Shown here: in pieces, positions 2,406-14,986 of the stretch
How positions within the stretch are numbered: the first letter of the stretch is position 1
Layout: each line of letters begins with the position of its first letter
Virus record (IMG/VR): IMGVR_UViG_3300025012_000224
Span: 1-32,292 of that record
Source of the DNA: a virus
DNA length: 32,292 nucleotides
Direction: 5' to 3' (one strand)
Made by a program: the position numbers and the translations under genes
The notes under the pieces: generated by a model
What the model was told of the DNA's origin: nothing
Databases searched by the model: none
The model's input: only the letters and a program-made list of their open reading frames with translations

Positions 2406-5400
2406 TTACGCCCTGTCTCCCACCAACATGATCAGATGACGGGTCCGATAGACTGCTGCACAAGTGCGGTTGTCCGCATGGGGATCAAGGAACCGCACCG
2501 CATTGTTATCATCCAGAGCCGCGAACCGAGTCAGAACCACCAACACCAGTTCATTCCTGCGGAACAAAAGCCCTCCGGCAACCCCCGGCACCTCATCCAC
2601 GATGCGGGCCAGGAAGGGGAAAAACACTTTGTGTCGGACGGCTCCGAACAAGGGTTGGGAAATCATCGTGGGTCGGTATACCGTGTCATCGGCAAACGGA
2701 TAGAAGGCCCGGAACTCAGCATCCTTGCGAGGTGTTTTCCAGTTATCAAGCCCCCCGAAATCAAAGGCGTGTTGAGAGTCCACTTGCACAAAGGGGTGTA
2801 GTGAGAGCAATCCTGTGTTGGCATTGAAATCGTCGATGGTCACACTGGTCGTGGCACAGAAATACCACTCCCTGGTTGTCCCAGCAACAACAGTTACCGG
2901 GTCCAACGGGGAACCGTCCAGGATCGGAATCTGACATCCTGGCAGAAGCCACGGGAACCCTTGGTCGAGTGAACCCACACCCGTTTGACCAGTCCAAATT
3001 TCGGGACTGATCAGAAGGGGATCCACCGTGAGAAGGGTCGGACAAACCCCATCCCCGGTGGTCATAATATCGCCTTCCTTGACCCCGGCCGTTTGTGGAA
3101 CACGAGAACGGAAATAGACTGCTACCTGGTAGCCACCACCAAGGACCCCGTAGTTGGGGATTGCATCCTGGGGGAAATACTTGATCTCACACAGGGTTTG
3201 TCCAGTTCCGGCCAGGTTCTGCGAGAGTACCACTTTGCGGCTACTGCTCCCATATTCTGTCAGGGTTTGGTCTATAGGTCTGGCCACAGGCACACTCAGG
3301 TCAATCACAGCCGTCTGTTGTGCTCTTGCTCCGTATACCCGGCGAGGGAAATATAGGTTTCGTCTGTCTCTGCTCACGATTGTTTCAAGACCGTTGTCTC
3401 CCACAGGAACTCCGGGATGAGCAGGACCGGCCGGGTCATAGGTCTCATTGGCCACGTATTCCAGTTTGACCTCTCGATACAGAGGTCGGAAACCGGGGGC
3501 CAAAAGGGCTTCCATATCCAATGGTTGTTGTCCAGGAGCATTCTCGATAATGGGGCCGGGTCCAGCCGGTCCGGAACCATCATAGACAACCGGATCCGGG
3601 ACAACCTCGAAGTCAGGGGTGTCCGTGGTTCCAGAACCCAACGGATAGGTGATCTCAAGTTCGACGAAGATCCGTCTCGGACTCCCATCCCGACGGGGAA
3701 ATCCCAAGATGGTTCTCCCTGCCATGTGGTAGGGGGCCACATTCAATCCACCAGTAGCCTCAGTGTCAGTCTTGTCGAGAGTGACCTCCAGATGCGTCGT
3801 GCCCAAGCCCTGAATCAACAGAACCTTGACTTGTTGATCCACGGCAGCCGTGAAATGTCCATCGTCATGATAGACACTGAGAACGTCAGTTATGACCGTC
3901 CCCACCGGGGCGAAGCTGTTGAAAAAGTTAGGGGCCGCATAGGTGTCAATGGCTTGTCCGCCCTGGAAAACAACCCCCAGAGTTGAAACCCCCAGGAACT
4001 CCAAATCGACATGGAGAACATCCCCCTCATACCAGGCATCTGCGTCCATCGGAACACCAGGTGCAGATTCGGCTTTCCAGGCATACTTGCCCGCATTGAC
4101 TGTTCCCGGAGGAACCGGACCACCCTGGGCTAGTGGCCCTAGTCGGTCTCCCGGCCAGAAAGAAAAGACCACTCGTTCGATTACGGGTTGATCGCCGAAT
4201 CGACGGGCGATGTGATCAAAGTTTCGGATGAACTCTCCCCGAGGGGTGTCTCCCGAAACAGGGAATGCACCACCCAGAGCATTTGACCGACCAATCTCGT
4301 TGCATACGAGGAACTGGGTAGAAACATCCCCTGAATCCCCCCCCAGAACCTGTTTTGAAGCTGTATCCACAGACCAAGTTCGAGTGGAACCATCCAGCAG
4401 GGAATGAATCTGATACTGAAGCTCGCTCGCCAAATCCCAACCGGGGAAAGCAATGTGTCGCCGCAGGTCCAGCAGGTTGTCTTGCACAACCACATCACAG
4501 AAATGACCATCGGGACGGTCAGACAAGCCAGCCGGGATTGGACCTAGAGGCCCGTTATAGCCGGGGTGTCCGTATCGAGGCGCACCATTGGTGTTCTCAA
4601 CGGGGTCAAAGCCTTTCCAGCCTGCAAGTTGAGAAGACACGTCATTGTGTCGATGGACAAAACAGATAGGGATCGCGTACACAAAGCCATCGGCAGCCCC
4701 AAGGTCTATAGCCGCTTGTTCCGAGCCATCTCCAGCAATCCAAAGACCATCATCCCGAATGTCATACTCCACGGCTGAGGAATTGAGCCAGACCTTGGTC
4801 TTGTCAGCCTGAACAAAGGGGTAGTTGGCTGCCGGGCTGGTCCTGGCGGCCTGTGCAAAGATTCCAGGTGTTGGAGGCGGCCCGGCAAAGAGATTTGAAA
4901 ACCCGTCCGGATGTTTCTTGTAGTTGACCCCTTCCTGAATCCCTGTTCGCCGAACTTGATACTGAACCTGAATCCGTTGAGTGGTTTCAGTATCCACCAC
5001 CGGATCCATCAAGTCATCAGGCAACCAGACGGGGGCGGGAGAACAGACGTTCCCATGTCGCCAGAGATGAGCTTGGTCGGGTTTGTTTGGTCTGTCGGCA
5101 CCCCCTGAAAAGCTGGCACCCGATGGTGCTAACGATCCTGGGTTGGCCACGGAAACGGCCAAAGAGATGAAGTTGCCTGTTCCTGGCGGACCAATGGTTC
5201 CGGCTCCGGGCACGACCGCCTCAAGCAAGACTGTATCTCCAGATGCTCGGGCCGAAATGACCGTGGAGAAAGTGTTGGCCGGATTGTTGAAAGCATCGGC
5301 AATGATGATGGCCTGAGCCTCCACCGTCGCAGCAGGAACCAGAAACTGATTGACCCCTGGGGCAGCACTGGCTGTCATCTGATTGACAGGGAGTATCCCG

Positions 5401-6047
5401 TTCACACGGATCCAATCCCCGGCCACTACTCCACCAGCCCCCACAGCCGTCACTTGAATGCTGGCCGATGCTTTGGGGCTTGGGGCAACCAGAGTCTTCC
5501 AGACCTCCAGGAAGATGAAATCTGTCCGCTTTACCGTGGTCGATGTCCCGTCGTAGATTTGAGGAGAGGCTAGCGGAATGATATTCCAACCCGGTGTCCT
5601 GGTGTAGTTGTACTCGACCACGATGGGCATCCCTGCCACCTTTGCCTCCAGACGAGGCAACAGGAAACAGTTGATCATCGTGCGGTCAGACCAGAATCCA
5701 AAATCATCAGCCCCAACCGACCCAATTGACACTGGGTTGGGACTGTCGTCCACAATGCCCGCTGGGGCCACTCCCATGGTGTAATCGGTGTAGCCATCCC
5801 GTCGCATGACTCCACGGAGCCAACCAGAGGGGGTCTGCCAACGGTCCAGAATCCCAGAGGCTTCCTGAGGGGCACCTTGCTTCAGTTGAAGCTCGGAATC
5901 GAGAACAGCTTTCCCGGACTGGAACACCACAGTGTAGAGCGAACGATCCCCGGTCTCCATAGACCGCGAGACTGTGTTGGGGGTCTGGACTACACAAGCC
6001 GGGTCACCAAGTCCGGCATACTGGATCTTGTGGTCTTTTACAGACAT
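2406..6047 (-). CDS. Baseplate/tail-associated structural protein, 1213 aa
   Basis: Translation starts at ATG 6047, with an AGGT ribosome-binding core six bases upstream, and ends with TAA. The start overlaps the end of the upstream endonuclease-like gene by 10 bases. Residues about 40 to 57 read VVFQSGKAVLDSELQLKQ. This resembles the QxGrxxLDadwNeq-type signature near the N-terminus of DUF6519/DUF4815-like proteins of phage tails and contractile injection systems; it is a motif-level resemblance only. The remainder is long and beta-rich, with NYTRTPGW and FIFLEVWKT segments and a long central region that I cannot place. No signal peptide or membrane segment is visible. Position among tail genes supports a baseplate or fibre-attachment role. 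It could equally be a fibre network component. Confidence 0.9.
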   Translation of the reverse strand: MSVKDHKIQYAGLGDPACVVQTPNTVSRSMETGDRSLYTVVFQSGKAVLDSELQLKQGAPQEASGILDRWQTPSGWLRGVMRRDGYTDYTMGVAPAGIVDDSPNPVSIGSVGADDFGFWSDRTMINCFLLPRLEAKVAGMPIVVEYNYTRTPGWNIIPLASPQIYDGTSTTVKRTDFIFLEVWKTLVAPSPKASASIQVTAVGAGGVVAGDWIRVNGILPVNQMTASAAPGVNQFLVPAATVEAQAIIIADAFNNPANTFSTVISARASGDTVLLEAVVPGAGTIGPPGTGNFISLAVSVANPGSLAPSGASFSGGADRPNKPDQAHLWRHGNVCSPAPVWLPDDLMDPVVDTETTQRIQVQYQVRRTGIQEGVNYKKHPDGFSNLFAGPPPTPGIFAQAARTSPAANYPFVQADKTKVWLNSSAVEYDIRDDGLWIAGDGSEQAAIDLGAADGFVYAIPICFVHRHNDVSSQLAGWKGFDPVENTNGAPRYGHPGYNGPLGPIPAGLSDRPDGHFCDVVVQDNLLDLRRHIAFPGWDLASELQYQIHSLLDGSTRTWSVDTASKQVLGGDSGDVSTQFLVCNEIGRSNALGGAFPVSGDTPRGEFIRNFDHIARRFGDQPVIERVVFSFWPGDRLGPLAQGGPVPPGTVNAGKYAWKAESAPGVPMDADAWYEGDVLHVDLEFLGVSTLGVVFQGGQAIDTYAAPNFFNSFAPVGTVITDVLSVYHDDGHFTAAVDQQVKVLLIQGLGTTHLEVTLDKTDTEATGGLNVAPYHMAGRTILGFPRRDGSPRRIFVELEITYPLGSGTTDTPDFEVVPDPVVYDGSGPAGPGPIIENAPGQQPLDMEALLAPGFRPLYREVKLEYVANETYDPAGPAHPGVPVGDNGLETIVSRDRRNLYFPRRVYGARAQQTAVIDLSVPVARPIDQTLTEYGSSSRKVVLSQNLAGTGQTLCEIKYFPQDAIPNYGVLGGGYQVAVYFRSRVPQTAGVKEGDIMTTGDGVCPTLLTVDPLLISPEIWTGQTGVGSLDQGFPWLLPGCQIPILDGSPLDPVTVVAGTTREWYFCATTSVTIDDFNANTGLLSLHPFVQVDSQHAFDFGGLDNWKTPRKDAEFRAFYPFADDTVYRPTMISQPLFGAVRHKVFFPFLARIVDEVPGVAGGLLFRRNELVLVVLTRFAALDDNNAVRFLDPHADNRTCAAVYRTRHLIMLVGDRA

Positions 6048-6835
6048 CGTTTGACCTGTCCAAACCGTTTCGGATCCGTCCGCAAATTACTCTGCACAGT
6101 CTCCCACAATGGGATCTGAGCAGCACACAAAGCCTCAATAGAGTCCCATAAAGGACCGGGGCTAAGCACAAACACCTGGTCCCCTGTCTCCCGCTGGAAG
6201 ATTTCTACCCGTGTTCGCGTCCCGGTCGGGAGAAAACCGCCCTCTCTTAACCAGCCCGCCGTTTCCACCCATCCTGCTGGGATCACATCCCAGAGAGGTT
6301 TGAACAGACGGAAAGCAGGGGTCCAATCCAAGCCGGTCACTTGGGGGCGATACTCATAGGACACCCCCTCATGGAGAAGCACTCGGACGAAATTGGCTTC
6401 CATCAGGGACCGACAAGGATGAGAGATCCCCCTCCTGATTCCCAGAATGGTGTGACCCGCTTCGTTGAGTTCACCTTTGGTACGACCCCGACTGATAGCC
6501 GTGCGATGCTCAGGGGACAGCTTTTGACCCGTCCAGGGGGCAACAGCCTTCAGCTTCTTCGACTGTTCGGCTCGGGCCTCGGGGGTTTGCCATCTCTGAG
6601 TGGCCGCTCTGGATTGCCGGGCACGACATTCAGGAGAGCGTTTCCGACTCTCTTCCGTATCGAGTCTGGCTCCCGGATGGGCCGCCAAGTAACTTTGTGC
6701 ATCCATCTTGTGTGCTGCCCGTAGATGCCGCCGTAGTTGTCGGCGAATGACGGCACACTCCAGGCAACGCAAGACCGGTTCAGCCTGACCAACCATCTGA
6801 CTGCCCATCGGATTCTGTGGGGCTACAACTTGCAT
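6038..6835 (-). CDS. Ros/MucR zinc finger plus NUMOD3 plus degenerate PD-(D/E)XK homing endonuclease-like protein
   Basis: This 265-residue protein is made of mobile-endonuclease modules. Residues 24 to 42 form CxxC-x9-H-x4-H (C24, C27, H37, H42) followed by a YLAAHPG segment, as in Ros/MucR-type DNA-binding fingers. Residues about 107 to 118 (SPEHRTAISRGR) resemble a NUMOD3 DNA-contact helix. From residue 142 the RSLMEANFVRVLLHEGVSY segment matches the first helix of the Vsr-like PD-(D/E)XK domain of phage homing endonucleases. The usual PDF and EVKG motifs appear as PAF (A174) and ETAG (A193), so two catalytic positions are lost and cleavage is unlikely. The ATG at 6835 directly follows an in-frame TAA; Met10 and Met14 are alternative starts. 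The 3' end overlaps the start of the 1213-residue gene by 10 bases. It may be a decaying homing gene or a retained DNA-binding protein. Confidence 0.85.
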   Translation of the reverse strand: MQVVAPQNPMGSQMVGQAEPVLRCLECAVIRRQLRRHLRAAHKMDAQSYLAAHPGARLDTEESRKRSPECRARQSRAATQRWQTPEARAEQSKKLKAVAPWTGQKLSPEHRTAISRGRTKGELNEAGHTILGIRRGISHPCRSLMEANFVRVLLHEGVSYEYRPQVTGLDWTPAFRLFKPLWDVIPAGWVETAGWLREGGFLPTGTRTRVEIFQRETGDQVFVLSPGPLWDSIEALCAAQIPLWETVQSNLRTDPKRFGQVKRCL

Positions 6836-6952
6836 TTACCCCCCACCCCCGCGAAAACACACAGGAATGCTTACCGTCCACCGGATGAGAGTCAGGTAGT
6901 TGGCTGTGGGCCAACTTGAGAGAGACCTGAGTCTGGTAGGACAGTGACTCAT
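6836..6952 (-). CDS. Possible 38-aa ORF filling the gap before the degenerate endonuclease gene
   Basis: The 117 bases between two clear genes hold one open frame. Its ATG (6952 to 6950) abuts the TAG of the 200-residue structural gene, and its TAA (6838 to 6836) abuts the ATG of the zinc-finger gene, in the same frame. The product would begin MSHCPTRLRS and end in four glycines. I recognise no family, and no good ribosome-binding site stands alone for it, though the abutting TAGATG could allow restart. It could be a real coupled leader, a decayed 5' extension of the endonuclease gene, or chance. The G-rich run just before its stop could act as the ribosome-binding site for the following gene. 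Confidence 0.25.
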   Translation of the reverse strand: MSHCPTRLRSLSSWPTANYLTLIRWTVSIPVCFRGGGG

Positions 6953-7555
6953 CTAAAAGGTCAATCTCCAGGTTATTGAGAGAATTGCGGTACTCGGCTT
7001 GGCGACACATGCGAAGGTCAAGTAGTTTGCCATAAGGTCGTATCCGGTCACATCAATGGTTGCGTCGTAGCTGGTTGGACCGTTGTTGATTGGATTCTTG
7101 GTGGCCGGGTTGAGGCTCGCTGTACACATCAACCCCATCTCATTGAGTGGCCCTACGGCTTCACCCTCTCCGAAGGTCGTGGTGAAGTCTACGATGTTCG
7201 TGGGATAGGCAACAGCAATACCAGCCACGTTTCGGTACTGAGTAGAGGCAAATGCCTTGCGGCCGATCTCTTCATTGAGCTTGCGTTGGGTTGTCTGCGG
7301 AGCATCCGGGGAGAGTAGGTTGCCTGTAGCCCCAGTGCCAACCCCGAGCATGGTCAACCCATTGCTCTGCACCCGACTGGGATCAAGACTGTTACGAAAC
7401 AGCCGGGCTGCCAAAATCCCGGCATCAAGGGTAATTGTTTGGAAACGCCGCCATTCAACAAGGATTTTCCCTGATCTGGCATCCCACATTTTGAAAAGAA
7501 ACTCGCCAGTAGCTCTCTGCATGAAACAAGGGGACATCTGTATATTATTGTCCAT
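6953..7555 (-). CDS. Phage structural protein, 200 aa, neighbour of the endonuclease gene
   Basis: The gene starts at ATG 7555, with a GGGGA about nine bases upstream, and ends in TAG. Its first 11 bases overlap the end of the homing endonuclease-like gene. Residues 17 to 35 read GEFLFKMWDARSGKILVEW, followed by LDAGILAARLFRNS. A conserved-looking core, TGNLLSPDAPQTTQRKLNEEI then KAFASTQYRN, runs from about residue 77. The C-terminus, ending ILSITWRLTF, has the beta-strand look of a small virion or fibre-associated protein. There is no signal peptide or catalytic motif. I do not recognise a named family. Its N-terminal 20 to 40 residues match the short ORF at 8488 to 8631, on the other side of the endonuclease gene, which suggests a duplicated or split relative. 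Confidence 0.88.
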   Translation of the reverse strand: MDNNIQMSPCFMQRATGEFLFKMWDARSGKILVEWRRFQTITLDAGILAARLFRNSLDPSRVQSNGLTMLGVGTGATGNLLSPDAPQTTQRKLNEEIGRKAFASTQYRNVAGIAVAYPTNIVDFTTTFGEGEAVGPLNEMGLMCTASLNPATKNPINNGPTSYDATIDVTGYDLMANYLTFACVAKPSTAILSITWRLTF

Positions 7556-8495
7556 GCTTCCGGATCCCCTTTCTCACCACAATTTGAAAATTCAACTCCG
7601 GATATTGCGCCTGAAAGGCCATGATCTTCGGATAGGTCTTGTGCGACGGGCTCCACCACCCCTTCACGTCTTCCAACAAAACATCTGTTTTGGGGAGCCT
7701 GTGCAGAAAGGCCACCGGATCTTGTAGGCTGACTCCCCGTGCAACTTGAGGGAGGATCCAAAAATCGGGTCTATATGTGGTTCGTTTCCCATCCATCATT
7801 AAGGGATATGCCTCGATCTCATAGAGCCAAACCTCTTTCGCTGCATCTAACTCTTGGGCACGTTGAATTTCCGAGGAGGACCGGAGCCAAATTTGACCCT
7901 GACACGGAGAGGCATAATAAGCGCCCTTTCCGTATCCGGAAGAAAAGGGCACTGTCCGGCCCTGCTGATAGGTCTTTCTTTGACTCTCGGATTGCTTGCG
8001 TTTGGTCTCCTCAGTTGCTTTTCGGCCTCTCTTTTTTTCGATCATCCGAACACGGCCCGCAAGAACAGCTTGCGTGATGGCATGGGGTTTTCCGCGTTGA
8101 GAAGCCGCTCGTTTTTCAACAACCTCTCGCGGCATAGGCCCTGTCTTGACCCCCTTGTTCCACATGACTTGCCGAGCACGAGCCTCCCGAATCTTAGCCT
8201 TGGCTTCTTCAGTATGTCGGGCACCCCTCCGATGAGAACTCCGAACCGGCTGTTTACGTCCTTCTGCATAGGCTAAAATTAGAGAATCAGACAACTTCCG
8301 CCGGGTCCCCTCAGACAACACTTTACCCCGATGTCCCTCAGAATTTGCTCGGAGATGAGCTTCTGACTGCACTTTGCCCGTCAGGGATTGGGAGATGCGT
8401 CCCCCGATCCTGATCCGTGTTTCATTGGACAAAGAAGCCCAATACCGTCGCATTGCTTCAGCCTGTCTGGCTTTGCCTTCCGGACTTTTAGCCAC
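7545..8495 (-). CDS. Homing endonuclease-like protein: NUMOD3 repeats plus Vsr-like PD-(D/E)XK nuclease
   Basis: The 316-residue protein starts with GTG, preceded by GGAG at 8503 to 8506 with a seven-base spacer. The first 180 residues are basic and contain at least three NUMOD3-like helices, around SEGTRRKLSD (61 to 70), HTEEAKAKIREA (94 to 105) and TEETKRKQSESQ (161 to 172); such segments contact DNA in phage homing nucleases. The C-terminal domain keeps the nuclease signature: SSSE near 206 to 209, YRPDF with D244, and EDVKG with E275 and K278, followed by a YPELNFQIV strand. I infer a double-strand DNA cleaving enzyme that spreads its own gene into phages lacking it. It overlaps the preceding 47-residue ORF by 8 bases and the following structural gene by 11 bases, so it was placed without breaking the 200-residue frame. 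Confidence 0.92.
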   Translation of the reverse strand: MAKSPEGKARQAEAMRRYWASLSNETRIRIGGRISQSLTGKVQSEAHLRANSEGHRGKVLSEGTRRKLSDSLILAYAEGRKQPVRSSHRRGARHTEEAKAKIREARARQVMWNKGVKTGPMPREVVEKRAASQRGKPHAITQAVLAGRVRMIEKKRGRKATEETKRKQSESQRKTYQQGRTVPFSSGYGKGAYYASPCQGQIWLRSSSEIQRAQELDAAKEVWLYEIEAYPLMMDGKRTTYRPDFWILPQVARGVSLQDPVAFLHRLPKTDVLLEDVKGWWSPSHKTYPKIMAFQAQYPELNFQIVVRKGIRKHGQ

Positions 8496-8631
8496 GGGGT
8501 TTCTCCGATTCTTTCAGTTCCCAATAGACCAGTTGCTCCCCTGTTCGGGCATCCCGAAGGTCAAAGATGAAATACCCCTTGGCCTGTCCCATGAGAGACA
8601 GGGGTTCGACTTGAGGAAGAAACATTCCCAT
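8488..8631 (-). CDS. 47-aa ORF, probable truncated paralogue of the 200-aa structural protein
   Basis: An AAGGAG at 8637 to 8642, five bases before ATG 8631, selects this start over the longer frame from 8676, which lacks such a site. The product ends in TAA inside the start of the endonuclease gene, an 8-base overlap. Residues 19 to 37, GYFIFDLRDARTGEQLVYW, align without gaps with GEFLFKMWDARSGKILVEW at residues 17 to 35 of the 200-residue protein on the far side of the endonuclease, sharing G, both F, DAR, G, LV and W. Similarity stops near the point where the endonuclease gene begins. I infer the leftover N-terminus of a second copy interrupted or replaced by the mobile gene. A small independent protein remains possible. 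Confidence 0.6.
   Translation of the reverse strand: MGMFLPQVEPLSLMGQAKGYFIFDLRDARTGEQLVYWELKESEKPRG
8503..8506 (-). promoter_or_regulatory. Ribosome-binding site deciding the GTG start of the homing endonuclease gene
   Basis: The minus strand reads GGAG, seven bases, then GTG. No competing ATG near the frame start has a comparable site, so the GTG at 8495 is preferred. Confidence 0.6.
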
Positions 8632-8636
8632 CTTCA

Positions 8637-8642
8637 CTCCTT
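8637..8642 (-). promoter_or_regulatory. Ribosome-binding site (AAGGAG) of the 47-aa ORF
   Basis: A strong AAGGAG lies five bases before ATG 8631 and inside the longer alternative frame starting at 8676. It argues that the short ORF is, or recently was, translated from 8631. The remaining 100 or so bases up to 8746 show no clear promoter or terminator. Confidence 0.6.
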
Positions 8643-8746
8643 GACGGGTCGGGTTCAGATGATCTTCGTGTCGCATTGGGTCTCCAGGGCGATTCCCTAC
8701 TTGTGCCCCCTGATAGACGAGTTACCGACCACGGGGGACTCGGGAC

Positions 8747-11700
8747 TTAGAGGTGAATGACCTGCATGGTTGTCACCCCAGGTGGCAGGGCTTGGCCGCC
8801 CTGCAACACCATACCGTGCTTCGGGTCATGCACGCCTGCAACAAGAGTGGCCGCCCCGCCTCCCAGCAAGGAACTTTGAGCCAATTTGGCACCACCACTC
8901 AACAAGTATGAGCCGCCTATCTGAGGTAGACCCCCTACAATGATGAGGTCCGTGGTCAGGAAAGGCTCCAGAGAGAGCAGGTTGGACACGGAAACGGGTT
9001 CCCAACCCTCCACCAGAACCACCAAGTGCCCAGCCCAGGTGGTTCCAGCCGTTGCTCGGACACAGCCCCTGGAAATCGGATGGGTGTTGATGGCCAGGGC
9101 CAGACTGATATGAGGGGCTGGCAGAAGAGCAAATTCATTGGGGGCCACTGGGGCAACCCGTCCGACGAAGGTCACGGTATCCCCCGAGAATTCTTCACGG
9201 AAAGTGACACCCATTCCGTCTACCAACGGGGGACCAACCCACTCGATGTAGGCAGAATCGGGCTTCGGGGTCAGGGAGTCTATTCCACCCCAGGGACCGA
9301 TCCGGGAGAACTCCCCGGCGAAGACCATGATAAACAAGGCTGCCCCGTCTGGGTATGCCGGACTCGACGGGTTGGCATACCAGGAAGCTGGCCGGGTTGG
9401 GGCTTTTGTGTCCGCACTGGACGGTACCGTTTCTTGAAGGGCCACGTCATGCAGGCCCACCCGCACGGCCTCTAGTCGCATGAACCAATCGGTTCGGCGC
9501 TGAATAGCCCCGTGTCCCCGACCGGCTTGAACCGAATGTGACGGCCAGTTAGGCCACAACACGGCGGTCCCAGGACCGAGAGTGCCCCCCAGCGGGATTT
9601 TCTGGGGCAGAATCTTACCTGTAGCATCCACTACTGGCCCCAGATAATGCCCCCCGCTGGCAAACAGGGTATGTCCGGGCATCCCCCCACCCTGGGACCA
9701 TTGCTCTTCCTGTGGGGTTTTGGCGGGTTCCCAGAACTTGGTCCCATGGAAAGCCAGAACGTGTGCCCCTACGGTATCTCCAACTACTTGCCCGGTTTCC
9801 TTCAACCCCAGACAAGATCCTACTCCGCCAGGGAGCAAGGGTCCGGCTCCTGTGGGGCTATAGACCTTTTCTGTTCCTTCGTTGGCCACCCAACCTGAGA
9901 ATCCCTCGGGGAGGATACCTTCTCCTGGGAGAGCTATGAGTCCAGTGTCCGCATCATCAGTGACCTGCATGAAGGACATGGCTTCATAAAGAGAAGCCGG
10001 GTCGTTGGTGTGTTCGAGAGTCTTGTAGGGGTCGTTCAAGACGAAAGCTGGAGTGTTCAAAACATCATTCGGGTCGTTCAAAACCGAATGGAACGTCTCT
10101 TGCCAAACGGTTTCCGCATGTTGTCCAGTTGGAACCGGAGGTGTGCCCTCGTTGAGCAAGGTCACACTATCCAGAAGGGGTTGACCCTGAAGATACGTGT
10201 TGGTGACCGGCTTTCCTGGATAGAAAGAGATGCTCAGAATTGCGTGTTCACTGGAGAAAGTCAGAGGATTCCCAGTTCTTGCAACCCGGTCATATCTCAA
10301 GGTGACCGTTTGGGTGTCCTTATCAAACGTCCAGTCCAGATAAGTGTAGATCCTCTGGGCCGCTTCATCATAGATCTGGAAGATGTCGTCGGCGAACAAA
10401 TGGGTAGGCAAAAGCGACACCCGGCGGGTGTCAAGAGCCTGCACCACTACGGTTTCCAATGTCAGATCCAGAGATCGTTCCCCACTGGTAATGACACTGG
10501 CCTGGTTCAGAACCATGTGTTCCGGGGCCTTATACTCATCTGTGGGTGATTTGAAGAGTCGATACCAGACCCAATTCCAAACCTGTTGGGTCACTGCCCC
10601 GGGAAGAGAAGCCCCAAATGCCACCTTGCCCATGCCAGCTTCGACTGTGGCCAGGGGCAGGTCCAAGTATTCGACATTGATCCATCCGGCTGAAGGCTCG
10701 GCTGTTTCTGTAGCAAACCCAACTCCTGGAACCCCCGGGGTTTCGGGCTGGTAGTAGGGTGGGAGTCCTAGCTGGGGCAGGTACACCGTCACTCCCCATT
10801 CGGGGGTGCGAAGCAATCTGACATCCGTAGTCTGATCCCAGGGCACATGTTGAATGACCGATGTGGCATCCGAGTTCGGAACCAGAAGTCCATCCGTGCG
10901 AGGGATCTCCCAAGAATTGATGTGACTCTGACTCCCCCTTTTCCAGACTCCCAGTGTTCGCTGAATCGTGATAGCCCCCGGTTGTTGGTCGGACCCGACC
11001 GGAGGCAGCACCACGTAGTCTACAGATTGCCAACGAACGGTCGTCGAGAGTGTCCCACTCAAACCGAAGACACAAGTATCCGGTGTGCCACCTCCGGCAA
11101 AGTCAGCTACCACCGCAGTTGGCGTTTGGATAACATCGTCTACGAAGAGCATCATCACACCCTTGTAGAGAGCTACCCGATAGGTGTGAATCTCGTGGTC
11201 CGTCCAGGTGCTGTCATAAGACCGGACCACTGTTCCAGCTTGGTCAACCAACTCGACCTTGGGGGTTGCCCCTATTCGTAGTTGCACTCCGACATAGACC
11301 GTACTACCCATGGTAGCTCCAAGAACCATGGGTAGAAGGACCACTCCGGAATCCCAGGCCGTGACAGCCAAACGAGCGGTAAAGGCCCGGCCCCACAGGT
11401 CTTGGAAACTCGGATCGGGAGAAGTAAGTCGTGCCGAATACAAGCCCTGCCCAAACGGCCCGGCCCCTGTTGGGTCTATGGGTGCCAGCACCGTCACCAG
11501 ATCAGCCAGATGGTGTGAAACGGTGAAGCCCGTAGGGGCGGTAGCGAGCCAACCCTGATCTTCAGGGTCCAACAGCCCCACCGCCCGAGCCACAGGCAGA
11601 GTCAGGAGCTTCTTGGCCTCCAATACGGGAAGCCCATCTAGATAGAGCAAGGTGGCTAGACGGACTTCACGTTGCCCATCCTGCAAGAGAATTTGGGCGT

Positions 11701-14700
11701 CCTGTATGCCTGTTCCAGACGTGACCGCAAATTCAGCCCGGAAGTCAAGGTTGGCATCGGGAGTGAAGAATGGCTCTAGTCGTTCGTAGCCATACGAATC
11801 TCCAGCCAACTGAGAAGTGGAACAAGCCCGGAGCCAGAGTGCTCCTTGCACAGGATCAATCTTGGAATATCCCAGACCTTGAGTAGTGTACCACTCCCCA
11901 CCAGGACTGTCCTCAGGAAGGTCACTCATCAAGGCGGAAACAACATAGGAATGTCCCCGGATACTGGCACTGTCTGGGATAACCCCATATCGGGCAAAAG
12001 ACCAACGGCTCCGATTCTTGGCCAACCGGCTCAAAGATCCCCAGAACACTTGACCTGGTCCCTCGGTAGACAACACCAGGGCAGTGCTGGACGGGGGTGG
12101 CATCACTGCCACGTTGCCGTCCAGGGTACCTATAGTGGTCGAGACTATGCCCGACACCTGAGCAATGGCAGTCTTCTGATTCGGGTCTGCTGTGATCCGA
12201 ACGGTCAGCGGGTAACCACTCCACGGAGTCTCGAAAAGGATCTCCGGATAGACATTCCCATACCGAGTGAAATCTGCTGGAAAACTAGGCGACACTCCCA
12301 CCGTGGTTGTACCATCAGTCTGTTGTACCAGACTACGAACGGTATACACCCCGGTCTGGGTTCCCGACAGAATCTGGAACCTGTCGTTGACCTGGAGGTT
12401 TCCGGGAACATCGCTGGTCTGGATCTTTACTGTGCTCAGGGCCGTAACCGTGCCCGTAACCTTGGGGCCGAGGGACCAAGCCGAGACATCATGGATCTTC
12501 AACGGGTCAAGTAGCCAGCCAAAGTGTTCCAGGCCATTGACCTGAAGTGCGCCTACCAGGTACAAATGGTGGTTGTCATGGAACCCGAGACAGATCCCGG
12601 TGAACACGCCATCCCAAGTGGCCAGCACGGCTTGGGTTGAGAAAGGATCCCTGGAATCCTCAATCTGGAACCGACCCGCCATGGAAAAAGAGGATGGGAA
12701 AGATAGGTCTAACCCCCGCCAATAGTAGGCAACCATTGGGTCGGTCGAGCTATAGGGTCCGGTATGTGCGTCAACAAGCAAATAGCTCTGGGAAGGAACA
12801 TCTACAGCCCCGGAGTCTGTTCCTGCCAGCACCCAAGCCGGGGAAGCAGCCGTTGGGGGGGTCTTGGCATCGAAGGCCACACCCACACCCACAGGCTCTC
12901 GTTCAAACGCTGGAACCTCTCCTCGGTCAGGATTCTGATTGAGGAGCAGGGTCGTGGGACTATTGAGCAAGGCGGAGTACCCTCGCTCGAAGCCCATGTA
13001 CCGGTGCCCGATGTAAAGCGGATTTGGAGTCTCGGCCGGACCCAGAACAACACTCATCGGGAACCTAGCAATGTCTGGAGCACCCTTCGGATGAGTGGCA
13101 TCCTGAACCTGTTCCCCATGAGCAGCCGGGTCATGATGCCCGATTCGACGGTCCCATTTGTTCAACACCAAGCCAGGAGTGTTCAACCCTGCCAAGGGCA
13201 TGATAGGATTGGCGAACCAACAGTAATCTACCAACACTTCACCCTGAGGGTCACCCGGCGGAAGAAGCGGCACTGGCACTGTGAGTTGGATAGAGCCGAC
13301 GTAGGGGTTGACATCCTTGACCTCTACAGCCGTGCCATTGACTTGGACGGTCACGTCCTGTTTGGTAGCCGGGGTCATGCTTCCCCAGGTTTTCACCAGG
13401 GGACCACGTTGAGTCCAGAACCAATCCTTGGTCAAGGCGGCAGACCCGAGGAACTGAGTCTGCTGATTGTGCATGAAGTTCCATGCCCCTGAGTAAACCG
13501 TGTTTGAGGCCGAGATTTCAGCCCCCAATACTTGCCAGCCAGAGATGTCGTAGGCTTCGGCGAAGAAGATCCAGGAGAGGCCACCCCGAGTACCTTGGGA
13601 AACCTGAGTGCAGTTGGCAATCGCCGTTGAAGCTAAGGGCAGGTCGTCCAACAGGAAACTGTAGATCCCAGCCTTGATGTTGCGAAGCAGTGTGAGTTTG
13701 TGTGGGAGATCACTCCAGGGGATGGTCAGAGTCACATCGTAGAGACCGGACCAGATTCGGATCTGGTCCACTCCTCCGGCGGCCTTCTGAAGCGTTATCC
13801 TGACCTGAACCCCAGTACCCACCGGGCCATCCTCGATAACCAGATGTCCAAACTGAGGCGAGGGGAAAGCCAAGATGGGCGGGTCATAGGTTGCCCCGGC
13901 GGCGTTGAACTGGAAGTCTGCCCTGAAGGTACATGTTGAGGGAATCAGTTTGCCCGAGTCATCCAGGAAGGTCCAACCGAAGGAATTGCCTCTTTCACGA
14001 GACAGATACAACCGGCCATTGAGAACCTGAGACACTCCTGTTCCAGTCTGAACGGCTGTCAACCCAGGAGCCAGATTTGGTAGTACGGAAGCATCATAGA
14101 GAAATGCCTGAGCCGGACTGATGGAGCAGGTGTAGTTCAGACTGGTCATCCCCCGAACCTGCATGTGAACCTGTGTGGCACTTCCCATGTAGGGATGGGT
14201 GATCACATCTGGGGTGATCACAATGGGGTAGTCTGGGTTGGAGGTGAAGCCATAGGAGGAGGCATCCAGAATCCCGGTTGTGCCTGGTGGTTCGAGAGAT
14301 TGCGGGAGCATGGTTTGACTGAAGGTGAACAGGAGTTCATCTCCTGCCAAAAGAGTCACAACACAAGTCGGAGGTTCCCCCATGGCCAGGAGAGCCACAG
14401 CCACAGCCAGAATGGGGTTTCCGGAGATGTCTGTCGGACCAGAGACTACTATCTGGTAAGTACCCCCAAGAGTGGTTCCCGTGTGGGTGATGATCACACT
14501 GAGAACTCCGGCTACGTTATCCCCCGGAACCGCGACCGTTCCCATCTGACCAACCACAACTGCGGTTGGGGTTGTTGTAGCTCCGAGAATCGGTGTGATC
14601 ACATAAGAGGCCGGGGCTACGAGAGCCGGATTGGCAGCATCCATTGGCTCTGAGAAGAACACTTCGATCTGGAACCCGTTCAGGCTTCTGGCTGATATCG

Positions 14701-14986
14701 GCCGAGGGGCGTTTCGTTCAACCCCGCCATAGGGACCAAGACCGTAGGGGTCTCCACCGTAGCCCCCTTGAACATTCACTGGGGGAGCAGAGAAAGCCAT
14801 ACTGCCGTAGGAGGTCAGACCGTAGGGACCACCATTCTGTTCGGGTGGGGTAGATACCCAGCCAACACCCCCATACCCAGTCCCCACGGGAGAGGAAGGA
14901 CAAACAACCTCCTCACCCGGGGCAGGGAACGGCCCAAACCCGAAAGGGCTAAGGGCCAGGCATTCTGATGGATCTACAGGTAGCAC
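8747..14986 (-). CDS. Giant multidomain tail fibre/adhesin-like protein, 2079 aa
   Basis: This is the longest gene in the window. It starts with GTG at 14986, with GGGGA at 14992 to 14996, and ends in TAA. Residues about 35 to 92 are a Gly/Tyr-rich low-complexity stretch with repeated YGG and GPYG. Two tandem Ig-like domains follow (about 94 to 200 and 205 to 310). The first has IEVFFSEPMDAANP and DISGNP, typical of SbsA/Big_5-type folds; the second has LLFTFSQTM. At least four LamG/concanavalin-like regions follow, near residues 323 to 510, 765 to 830, 1050 to 1120 and 1160 to 1325, with recurring strands such as YRVALYKGVMMLFVDD. Around 1625 to 1659 the VLNDP motif recurs. The architecture suggests a long fibre or adhesin that binds host-surface glycans. 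The receptor is unknown, and domain assignment rests on patterns rather than a search. Confidence 0.92.
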   Translation of the reverse strand: MLPVDPSECLALSPFGFGPFPAPGEEVVCPSSPVGTGYGGVGWVSTPPEQNGGPYGLTSYGSMAFSAPPVNVQGGYGGDPYGLGPYGGVERNAPRPISARSLNGFQIEVFFSEPMDAANPALVAPASYVITPILGATTTPTAVVVGQMGTVAVPGDNVAGVLSVIITHTGTTLGGTYQIVVSGPTDISGNPILAVAVALLAMGEPPTCVVTLLAGDELLFTFSQTMLPQSLEPPGTTGILDASSYGFTSNPDYPIVITPDVITHPYMGSATQVHMQVRGMTSLNYTCSISPAQAFLYDASVLPNLAPGLTAVQTGTGVSQVLNGRLYLSRERGNSFGWTFLDDSGKLIPSTCTFRADFQFNAAGATYDPPILAFPSPQFGHLVIEDGPVGTGVQVRITLQKAAGGVDQIRIWSGLYDVTLTIPWSDLPHKLTLLRNIKAGIYSFLLDDLPLASTAIANCTQVSQGTRGGLSWIFFAEAYDISGWQVLGAEISASNTVYSGAWNFMHNQQTQFLGSAALTKDWFWTQRGPLVKTWGSMTPATKQDVTVQVNGTAVEVKDVNPYVGSIQLTVPVPLLPPGDPQGEVLVDYCWFANPIMPLAGLNTPGLVLNKWDRRIGHHDPAAHGEQVQDATHPKGAPDIARFPMSVVLGPAETPNPLYIGHRYMGFERGYSALLNSPTTLLLNQNPDRGEVPAFEREPVGVGVAFDAKTPPTAASPAWVLAGTDSGAVDVPSQSYLLVDAHTGPYSSTDPMVAYYWRGLDLSFPSSFSMAGRFQIEDSRDPFSTQAVLATWDGVFTGICLGFHDNHHLYLVGALQVNGLEHFGWLLDPLKIHDVSAWSLGPKVTGTVTALSTVKIQTSDVPGNLQVNDRFQILSGTQTGVYTVRSLVQQTDGTTTVGVSPSFPADFTRYGNVYPEILFETPWSGYPLTVRITADPNQKTAIAQVSGIVSTTIGTLDGNVAVMPPPSSTALVLSTEGPGQVFWGSLSRLAKNRSRWSFARYGVIPDSASIRGHSYVVSALMSDLPEDSPGGEWYTTQGLGYSKIDPVQGALWLRACSTSQLAGDSYGYERLEPFFTPDANLDFRAEFAVTSGTGIQDAQILLQDGQREVRLATLLYLDGLPVLEAKKLLTLPVARAVGLLDPEDQGWLATAPTGFTVSHHLADLVTVLAPIDPTGAGPFGQGLYSARLTSPDPSFQDLWGRAFTARLAVTAWDSGVVLLPMVLGATMGSTVYVGVQLRIGATPKVELVDQAGTVVRSYDSTWTDHEIHTYRVALYKGVMMLFVDDVIQTPTAVVADFAGGGTPDTCVFGLSGTLSTTVRWQSVDYVVLPPVGSDQQPGAITIQRTLGVWKRGSQSHINSWEIPRTDGLLVPNSDATSVIQHVPWDQTTDVRLLRTPEWGVTVYLPQLGLPPYYQPETPGVPGVGFATETAEPSAGWINVEYLDLPLATVEAGMGKVAFGASLPGAVTQQVWNWVWYRLFKSPTDEYKAPEHMVLNQASVITSGERSLDLTLETVVVQALDTRRVSLLPTHLFADDIFQIYDEAAQRIYTYLDWTFDKDTQTVTLRYDRVARTGNPLTFSSEHAILSISFYPGKPVTNTYLQGQPLLDSVTLLNEGTPPVPTGQHAETVWQETFHSVLNDPNDVLNTPAFVLNDPYKTLEHTNDPASLYEAMSFMQVTDDADTGLIALPGEGILPEGFSGWVANEGTEKVYSPTGAGPLLPGGVGSCLGLKETGQVVGDTVGAHVLAFHGTKFWEPAKTPQEEQWSQGGGMPGHTLFASGGHYLGPVVDATGKILPQKIPLGGTLGPGTAVLWPNWPSHSVQAGRGHGAIQRRTDWFMRLEAVRVGLHDVALQETVPSSADTKAPTRPASWYANPSSPAYPDGAALFIMVFAGEFSRIGPWGGIDSLTPKPDSAYIEWVGPPLVDGMGVTFREEFSGDTVTFVGRVAPVAPNEFALLPAPHISLALAINTHPISRGCVRATAGTTWAGHLVVLVEGWEPVSVSNLLSLEPFLTTDLIIVGGLPQIGGSYLLSGGAKLAQSSLLGGGAATLVAGVHDPKHGMVLQGGQALPPGVTTMQVIHL

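Follow-up and report, generated by a model that had tools for sequence, protein, structure and literature searches.

Our results indicate that a homing endonuclease gene (HEG1) and a substitute N-terminus of the gene that it interrupts very probably form a free-standing phage element that combines homing with a built-in rescue. In the 32,292-nt stretch of phage DNA analyzed here (hereafter the window), all genes concerned lie on the minus strand. A 2079-aa structural gene (8747-14986) is farthest upstream in gene order. It is followed by a stub of 62 codons (8488..8676), which is the displaced native 5' end of a baseplate gene, and by HEG1 (7545..8495), which encodes 316 aa from a GTG start. 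Next come T200 (6953..7555), the chimeric full-length baseplate gene of 200 aa, and HEG2 (6038..6835), a second homing endonuclease gene, of the PD-(D/E)XK type, at the 3' end of T200; a 1213-aa structural gene (2406-6047) is last in order. The stop codon of the stub overlaps with the GTG of HEG1, and the stop codon of HEG1 overlaps with the ATG of T200. The first ~40 codons of T200 (7436..7555) constitute the substitute, or rescue, N-terminus, as recognized from alignment and from a Gln at a position otherwise occupied by Asn. A sequence-only reading of the window had described the endonuclease gene with a short ORF before it and a 200-residue protein after it, in agreement with this layout.

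The short upstream ORF is present, but it is longer than the 47 residues originally assigned to it. By homology the stub starts at ATG 8676, preceded by the Shine-Dalgarno (SD) motif GGAG, and relatives align through MRHEDHLNPTRQGVKMGM. The start at 8631, which would give 47 codons, is an ATG inside this ORF, and its SD-like CAAGGAG is fortuitous. Native homology in the stub reaches the W-E codons (about 8518), while its tail, LKESEKPRG and a stop, is the leader of the element and holds the ribosome-binding site of HEG1. The reported similarity between stub and T200 N-terminus is real, with a local BLOSUM62 score of 61 against a maximum of 56 in 5000 shuffles (mean 23.4, sd 3.9). Furthermore, a profile of the N-terminal region of intact relatives matched both the stub (E=7e-17) and the T200 N-terminus (E=4e-6), and therefore the two segments represent the same domain rather than different families. 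The N-terminal region of the relatives matches the stub along its whole length, while T200 has only a shortened substitute. Hence, the stub and T200 residues ~39-200 are halves of one ancestral gene, and T200 from residue ~39 on is the resident gene.

Relatives of T200 were gathered from IMG/VR and from one genome collection, in which the scan found only three intact loci. Nearly all relatives have one ORF, in which an N-terminal region of ~55 residues is directly followed by the T200 C-terminal region. A duplicated N-terminus was found only in the window and in loci L016, L039 and L112, all with HEG1 or a homologue, and in L013, without HEG. These data agree with the earlier proposal that a mobile endonuclease gene landed in a structural gene and left an N-terminal stub, which may still be translated. 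They contradict the proposal that two tandem related structural genes were involved, because all 111 distinct intact relatives have a single gene composed of a stub-type N-terminus and the T200 remainder. Likewise, in the relatives' locus without the endonuclease, the stub aligns with intact N-termini, but there is one gene and no upstream paralogue. Intact HEG-less relatives also lack the 47-residue ORF with its own stop codon; the exception is L013, discussed below. The divergent DNA of the two copies had been taken as a sign of an old or fast-evolving duplication. Instead, the duplication is only apparent: the element brought the second copy along as a substitute N-terminus, which explains both the divergence and why the similarity ends at the start of HEG1.

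Near-full-length HEG1 homologues occur in L016 (51% identity), L039 (52%) and L112 (44%), which brings the HEG1-bearing copies found to four, including the window. All three homologues share the target gene, the insertion site and the anatomy of the window: the stop codon of a native stub overlaps with the HEG start, and the stop codon or 3' end of the HEG overlaps with the start of the next gene, which has a short substitute N-terminus. The homologue in L039 (L039:4345-5028) lacks the N-terminal ~95 residues, including part of the NUMOD repeats, with the nuclease domain intact and at the same site. In cultured-phage records, the HEG1 homologues were partial and distant only (LR745208.1, 36.8%; Agrobacterium phage OLIVR4, 26.7%). 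The four carriers and one scar among intact relatives constitute a presence/absence polymorphism of the HEG at one site. Carriers of the element fall in different branches, requiring five state changes on the C-terminal tree, which is a quick tree with many weak branches. The scar is L013, which has a stub and a substitute without HEG, and its leader keeps an in-frame KGLSHV and stop, comparable to the C-terminus KGLSHA and stop of the HEG in L016. Judging from its sequence, L013 is a HEG-deletion scar. In this same locus (L013:7920-8210), the stub and the rescue N-terminus have nearly identical DNA over about 50 bp, which suggests gene conversion or recent copying between both.

The composition of the mobile unit is most apparent from L039 and L051, which lacks HEG1. 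These two loci are collinear, with 91.6% identity over 4.3 kb. Their match runs to GAGAAGGACA (L039:4314) and resumes at TCATCACC (L039:~5117), so that L039 has ~802 bp in place of only 3 bp in L051 (ACA, spanning the Asn codon AAC and the next codon ATC). The L039 stub and the native 5' end of L051 are identical at 159 of 163 nt, and the right flanks at 388 of 402. This clean insertion, with near-identical stub and flank, shows that the substitute N-terminus came with the HEG. The edges are similar in other pairs: homology between L112 and L079 restarts at the codon right after CAA, and homology between L016 and L006 stops inside the Asn codon. By analogy with L039/L051 and from these homology edges, the whole mobile unit of the window would consist of the leader with its SD, HEG1 and the substitute N-terminus, ~1.08 kb in total (7436..8517, minus strand). 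In the target gene, it is flanked by the W-E codons on one side and by the ITLDAG codons on the other. The left edge (~8518) is less certain than that of L039, because the window has no close empty-site relative; the closest empty-site DNA reaches at best ~72-76% identity. Taken together, comparisons of these loci show the composition of the unit, its insertion at a single site in one gene, its occurrence in different lineages and its scar.

All 111 distinct intact genes have Asn at the insertion point, and all five element-bearing genes have Gln there (Fisher 6e-9, with relatedness ignored). Among the intact genes, the Asn codon does not vary in its first two bases; the Gln codon of the window is CAA (7439-7441). 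The simplest reading is that the conserved Asn codon would lie within the site that is recognized or cleaved, which the conservative substitution in the rescue copy would abolish. If so, the rescue N-terminus probably makes the gene immune to re-cutting. The case for a common origin of the five substitutes depends mainly on the Gln that they share and on their being shorter than the native N-terminus, and the Gln could reflect functional convergence. A firm tree of the substitutes is precluded because the N-terminal segment is too short. Over 18 columns, the nearest neighbors were mixed: the substitute of the window was closest to that of L039 (0.72), and the substitute of L013 to its own stub. 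One intact gene of the Asn type (L043:4920-5100) has an N-terminal segment, FYFKMTDARSG, that resembles the substitutes of L039 and the window, and KMTDARSG is common to this intact gene and the L039 substitute. Possibly, an L043-type lineage was the donor of the rescue segment.

HEG1 matches Pfam NUMOD3 (3.2e-8) and a PHROG homing endonuclease family (7e-6), and no LAGLIDADG match was found in it; it has NUMOD3 and a PD-(D/E)XK-like fold instead. The structure prediction has helical N-terminal repeats and a C-terminal PD-(D/E)XK domain at residues ~184-311 (pLDDT 75-92). Foldseek alone gave no significant match for HEG1 (weak E-values), and the fold likeness comes from VIA-align. The predicted nuclease domain is closest to TnsA (Z 8.1), with several PD-(D/E)XK chains below it and I-Bth0305I at Z 5.0. 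The predicted catalytic fold of HEG1 thus resembles that of these nucleases, at identities of 12-17%, and HEG1 has NUMOD3 repeats in front. Because E209, D244 and E275-D-V-K278 are invariant in the four homologues, HEG1 is probably active. Its HEG-type DNA-binding and nuclease modules, together with the site polymorphism, place HEG1 in the class of free-standing phage homing endonucleases.

T200 belongs to a baseplate gene cluster, in which a wedge subunit profile matches a 1169-aa gene (2e-23). The predicted structure of T200 (model pLDDT 70) resembles A511 gp105 (Foldseek 2.2e-5, prob 1.00), and over 140-150 residues also the phi812 baseplate arm (Z 8.6) and T4 gp8 (Z 7.4); its identity with gp190 of phage G is 34%. 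On this model, T200 is a gp8-like or A511 gp105-like baseplate wedge-arm protein. A protein of the baseplate wedge is plausibly essential, and this would explain the need for a rescue copy. In the window, L016 and L039, the SD of T200 (AAAGG or GAGGG) lies within the final R-K/E-G codons of the HEG, so translation of HEG and T200 is probably coupled.

From these features, we infer how cleavage, homing by recombination, resistance and the function of the chimeric protein would fit together. In a co-infecting relative, HEG1 would cleave the baseplate gene ~55 codons from its start, where a conserved site spans the invariant Asn codon. Repair of the break would copy the HEG and the altered 5' end behind it, using homology in the stub upstream and in the gene remainder downstream. 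The resident 5' end would stay as a stub ahead of the HEG, while the gene remainder would be fused in frame to the substitute N-terminus. This would yield a full-length protein translated by coupling from the last codons of the HEG. The substitute would lack the original site, as its Asn codon is changed to Gln, and should hence resist cleavage. A later deletion of the HEG could leave a scar.

An alternative explanation might be that a 5' tandem duplication or copy error came first and the HEG later entered the spacer, in which case the mobile unit would not include the N-terminal copy. L013 would fit this explanation, since it is duplicated without a HEG and its two copies have similar DNA over the MWDAKTGEILVEW stretch. 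Yet, L013 keeps the last codons of a HEG, and every duplication seen among the relatives examined comes with a HEG or a HEG tail. Moreover, HEG and substitute are present or absent as a single clean insertion in L039/L051, and the Gln and the short N-terminus are common to all five carriers, even though their resident genes belong to different branches. We therefore consider a prior duplication very unlikely. Insertion into one of two complete tandem paralogues, with truncation of the upstream one, is less likely still. It would account for the homology of stub and T200 N-terminus, but the 111 distinct intact genes are single, without a second copy in any intact relative, and the L039 stub and the remainder of the downstream gene are contiguous in L051.

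The location of the HEG within a conserved gene, at a conserved codon, could also be expected of an intron- or intein-encoded endonuclease with a spliced product. This is highly improbable, however, as positions 6000-9000 gave no match to group I or II intron families in Rfam up to E=1, the HEG frame differs from that of the stub with overlapping stop and start, and splicing would duplicate the domain, since the downstream gene starts on its own and already has an N-terminus. A tRNA-associated insertion was considered as well, but there is no tRNA within the window. HEG1 may also have been domesticated for marker exclusion during co-infection and kept for the benefit of the phage, with the rescue N-terminus as self-immunity. 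A study of jumbo phages offers a precedent for HEG-driven interference (PMC11620839), and the catalytic motif of HEG1 is intact. In contrast, the sporadic distribution and the deletion scar suggest turnover over retention. Domestication thus seems unlikely, although it is compatible with homing combined with rescue and does not compete with it as an exclusive explanation.

The 3' end of the same gene may have undergone a similar process. HEG2 homologues occupy the same place in L002, L005, L011, L029, L032 and L039. The HEG2 of the window has a degenerate catalytic motif, WTPAF and VETAG versus WTPDF and VELKG in its homologues, with loss of the catalytic Asp and Lys; it is probably inactive, a likely dead HEG. 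In L039, HEG2 (5564-6604) adjoins the 3' end of T200, and it is absent in L051. The last 60 nt of T200 are only 57% identical between these loci (L039:5522-5582 versus L051:5513-5573), compared to 98% in the preceding 150 nt. Yet, 17 of the 20 residues are the same, with 14 synonymous codon changes. Between L039 and the HEG2 carrier L032, identity is 78% in the last 60 nt and 79% in the preceding 150 nt. This recoded end implies that HEG2, too, brings its own end of the host gene, in this case the 3' end as in the WHO elements of yeasts. Close to the stop, the TGG-Arg codon reads AGA/AGG in seven of eight HEG2 carriers versus 8 of 57 insert-less loci (Fisher 6.5e-5, with relatedness ignored).

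On balance, we lean towards the view that one baseplate gene in large contractile-tailed phages is attacked from both ends, by HEG1 at the 5' end and HEG2 at the 3' end, each supplying a cleavage-resistant segment. If true, this baseplate gene would be rewritten from both sides by natural home-and-rescue drives. The intergenic junction between T200 and the 1213-aa gene carries inserts of about 0.6-3 kb in L018, L062, L079, L082, L092, L093, L096, L099, L101, L103, L110, L112, L147, L149, L165 and others. The one in L112 has a different HEG-like ORF with CxxC/HNH-like motifs. This junction looks like a hotspot of diverse HEGs.

Free-standing phage HEGs of the T4 seg/mob type move by intronless homing through double-strand-break repair, and resistance usually arises because the site is disrupted or has diverged. 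To our knowledge, no free-standing phage HEG carries a substitute coding end of its target, and we found no phage precedent for a gene-end-replacing homing element in the open-access literature. The HEG1 element shares with the seg/mob type an intron-less HEG among conserved phage genes (survey PMC10448857).

More similar are the WHO elements at FBA1 in Torulaspora and Lachancea yeasts, which combine a HEG with a resistance-conferring 3' end of the host gene; after homing, the host gene is a full-length chimera and its former end persists as a fragment across the HEG from it, and a working host gene remains when the HEG is lost (PMC7282813). Both WHO and HEG1 elements (window, L016, L039, L112) thus have a HEG beside a chimeric host gene, with the displaced end beyond the HEG. 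However, WHO elements replace the 3' end with the HEG downstream, whereas the HEG1 element replaces the 5' end with the HEG upstream. WHO elements are eukaryotic, encode LAGLIDADG enzymes with zinc fingers, are independently transcribed and form clusters, whereas HEG1 is a phage gene with PD-(D/E)XK and NUMOD3 modules and is probably translationally coupled. Hence, with its different nuclease and the other end replaced, the HEG1 element does not belong to the WHO elements, but it works in the same manner. The mORFs of fungal mitochondria, which have foreign C-termini in atp6 of Allomyces and in atp6, atp9, cox2 and nad3 of Glomus (PMC3630166), also combine a HEG inserted in a conserved gene with a diverged second copy of one gene end, and the displaced resident end matches relatives. 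They differ in being mitochondrial, with C-terminal replacement and LAGLIDADG or GIY-YIG enzymes.

The closest known systems are therefore the yeast WHO elements and the fungal mORFs, with 3' replacement, and the HEG1 element, which replaces the 5' end, is their mirror image in phages. Synthetic home-and-rescue (HomeR) gene drives are likewise inserted in a target gene, whose function a rescue copy maintains, but they are engineered, CRISPR-based and used in insects (PMC7968924). The HEG1 element offers a natural parallel to such drives, with a concrete predicted cleavage site and resistance change. Its occurrence in phages as a 5' version, with another nuclease family and another host gene, points to 'insert plus recoded rescue' as a convergent solution for HEGs that have to enter conserved coding sequence but lack a self-splicing intron or intein.
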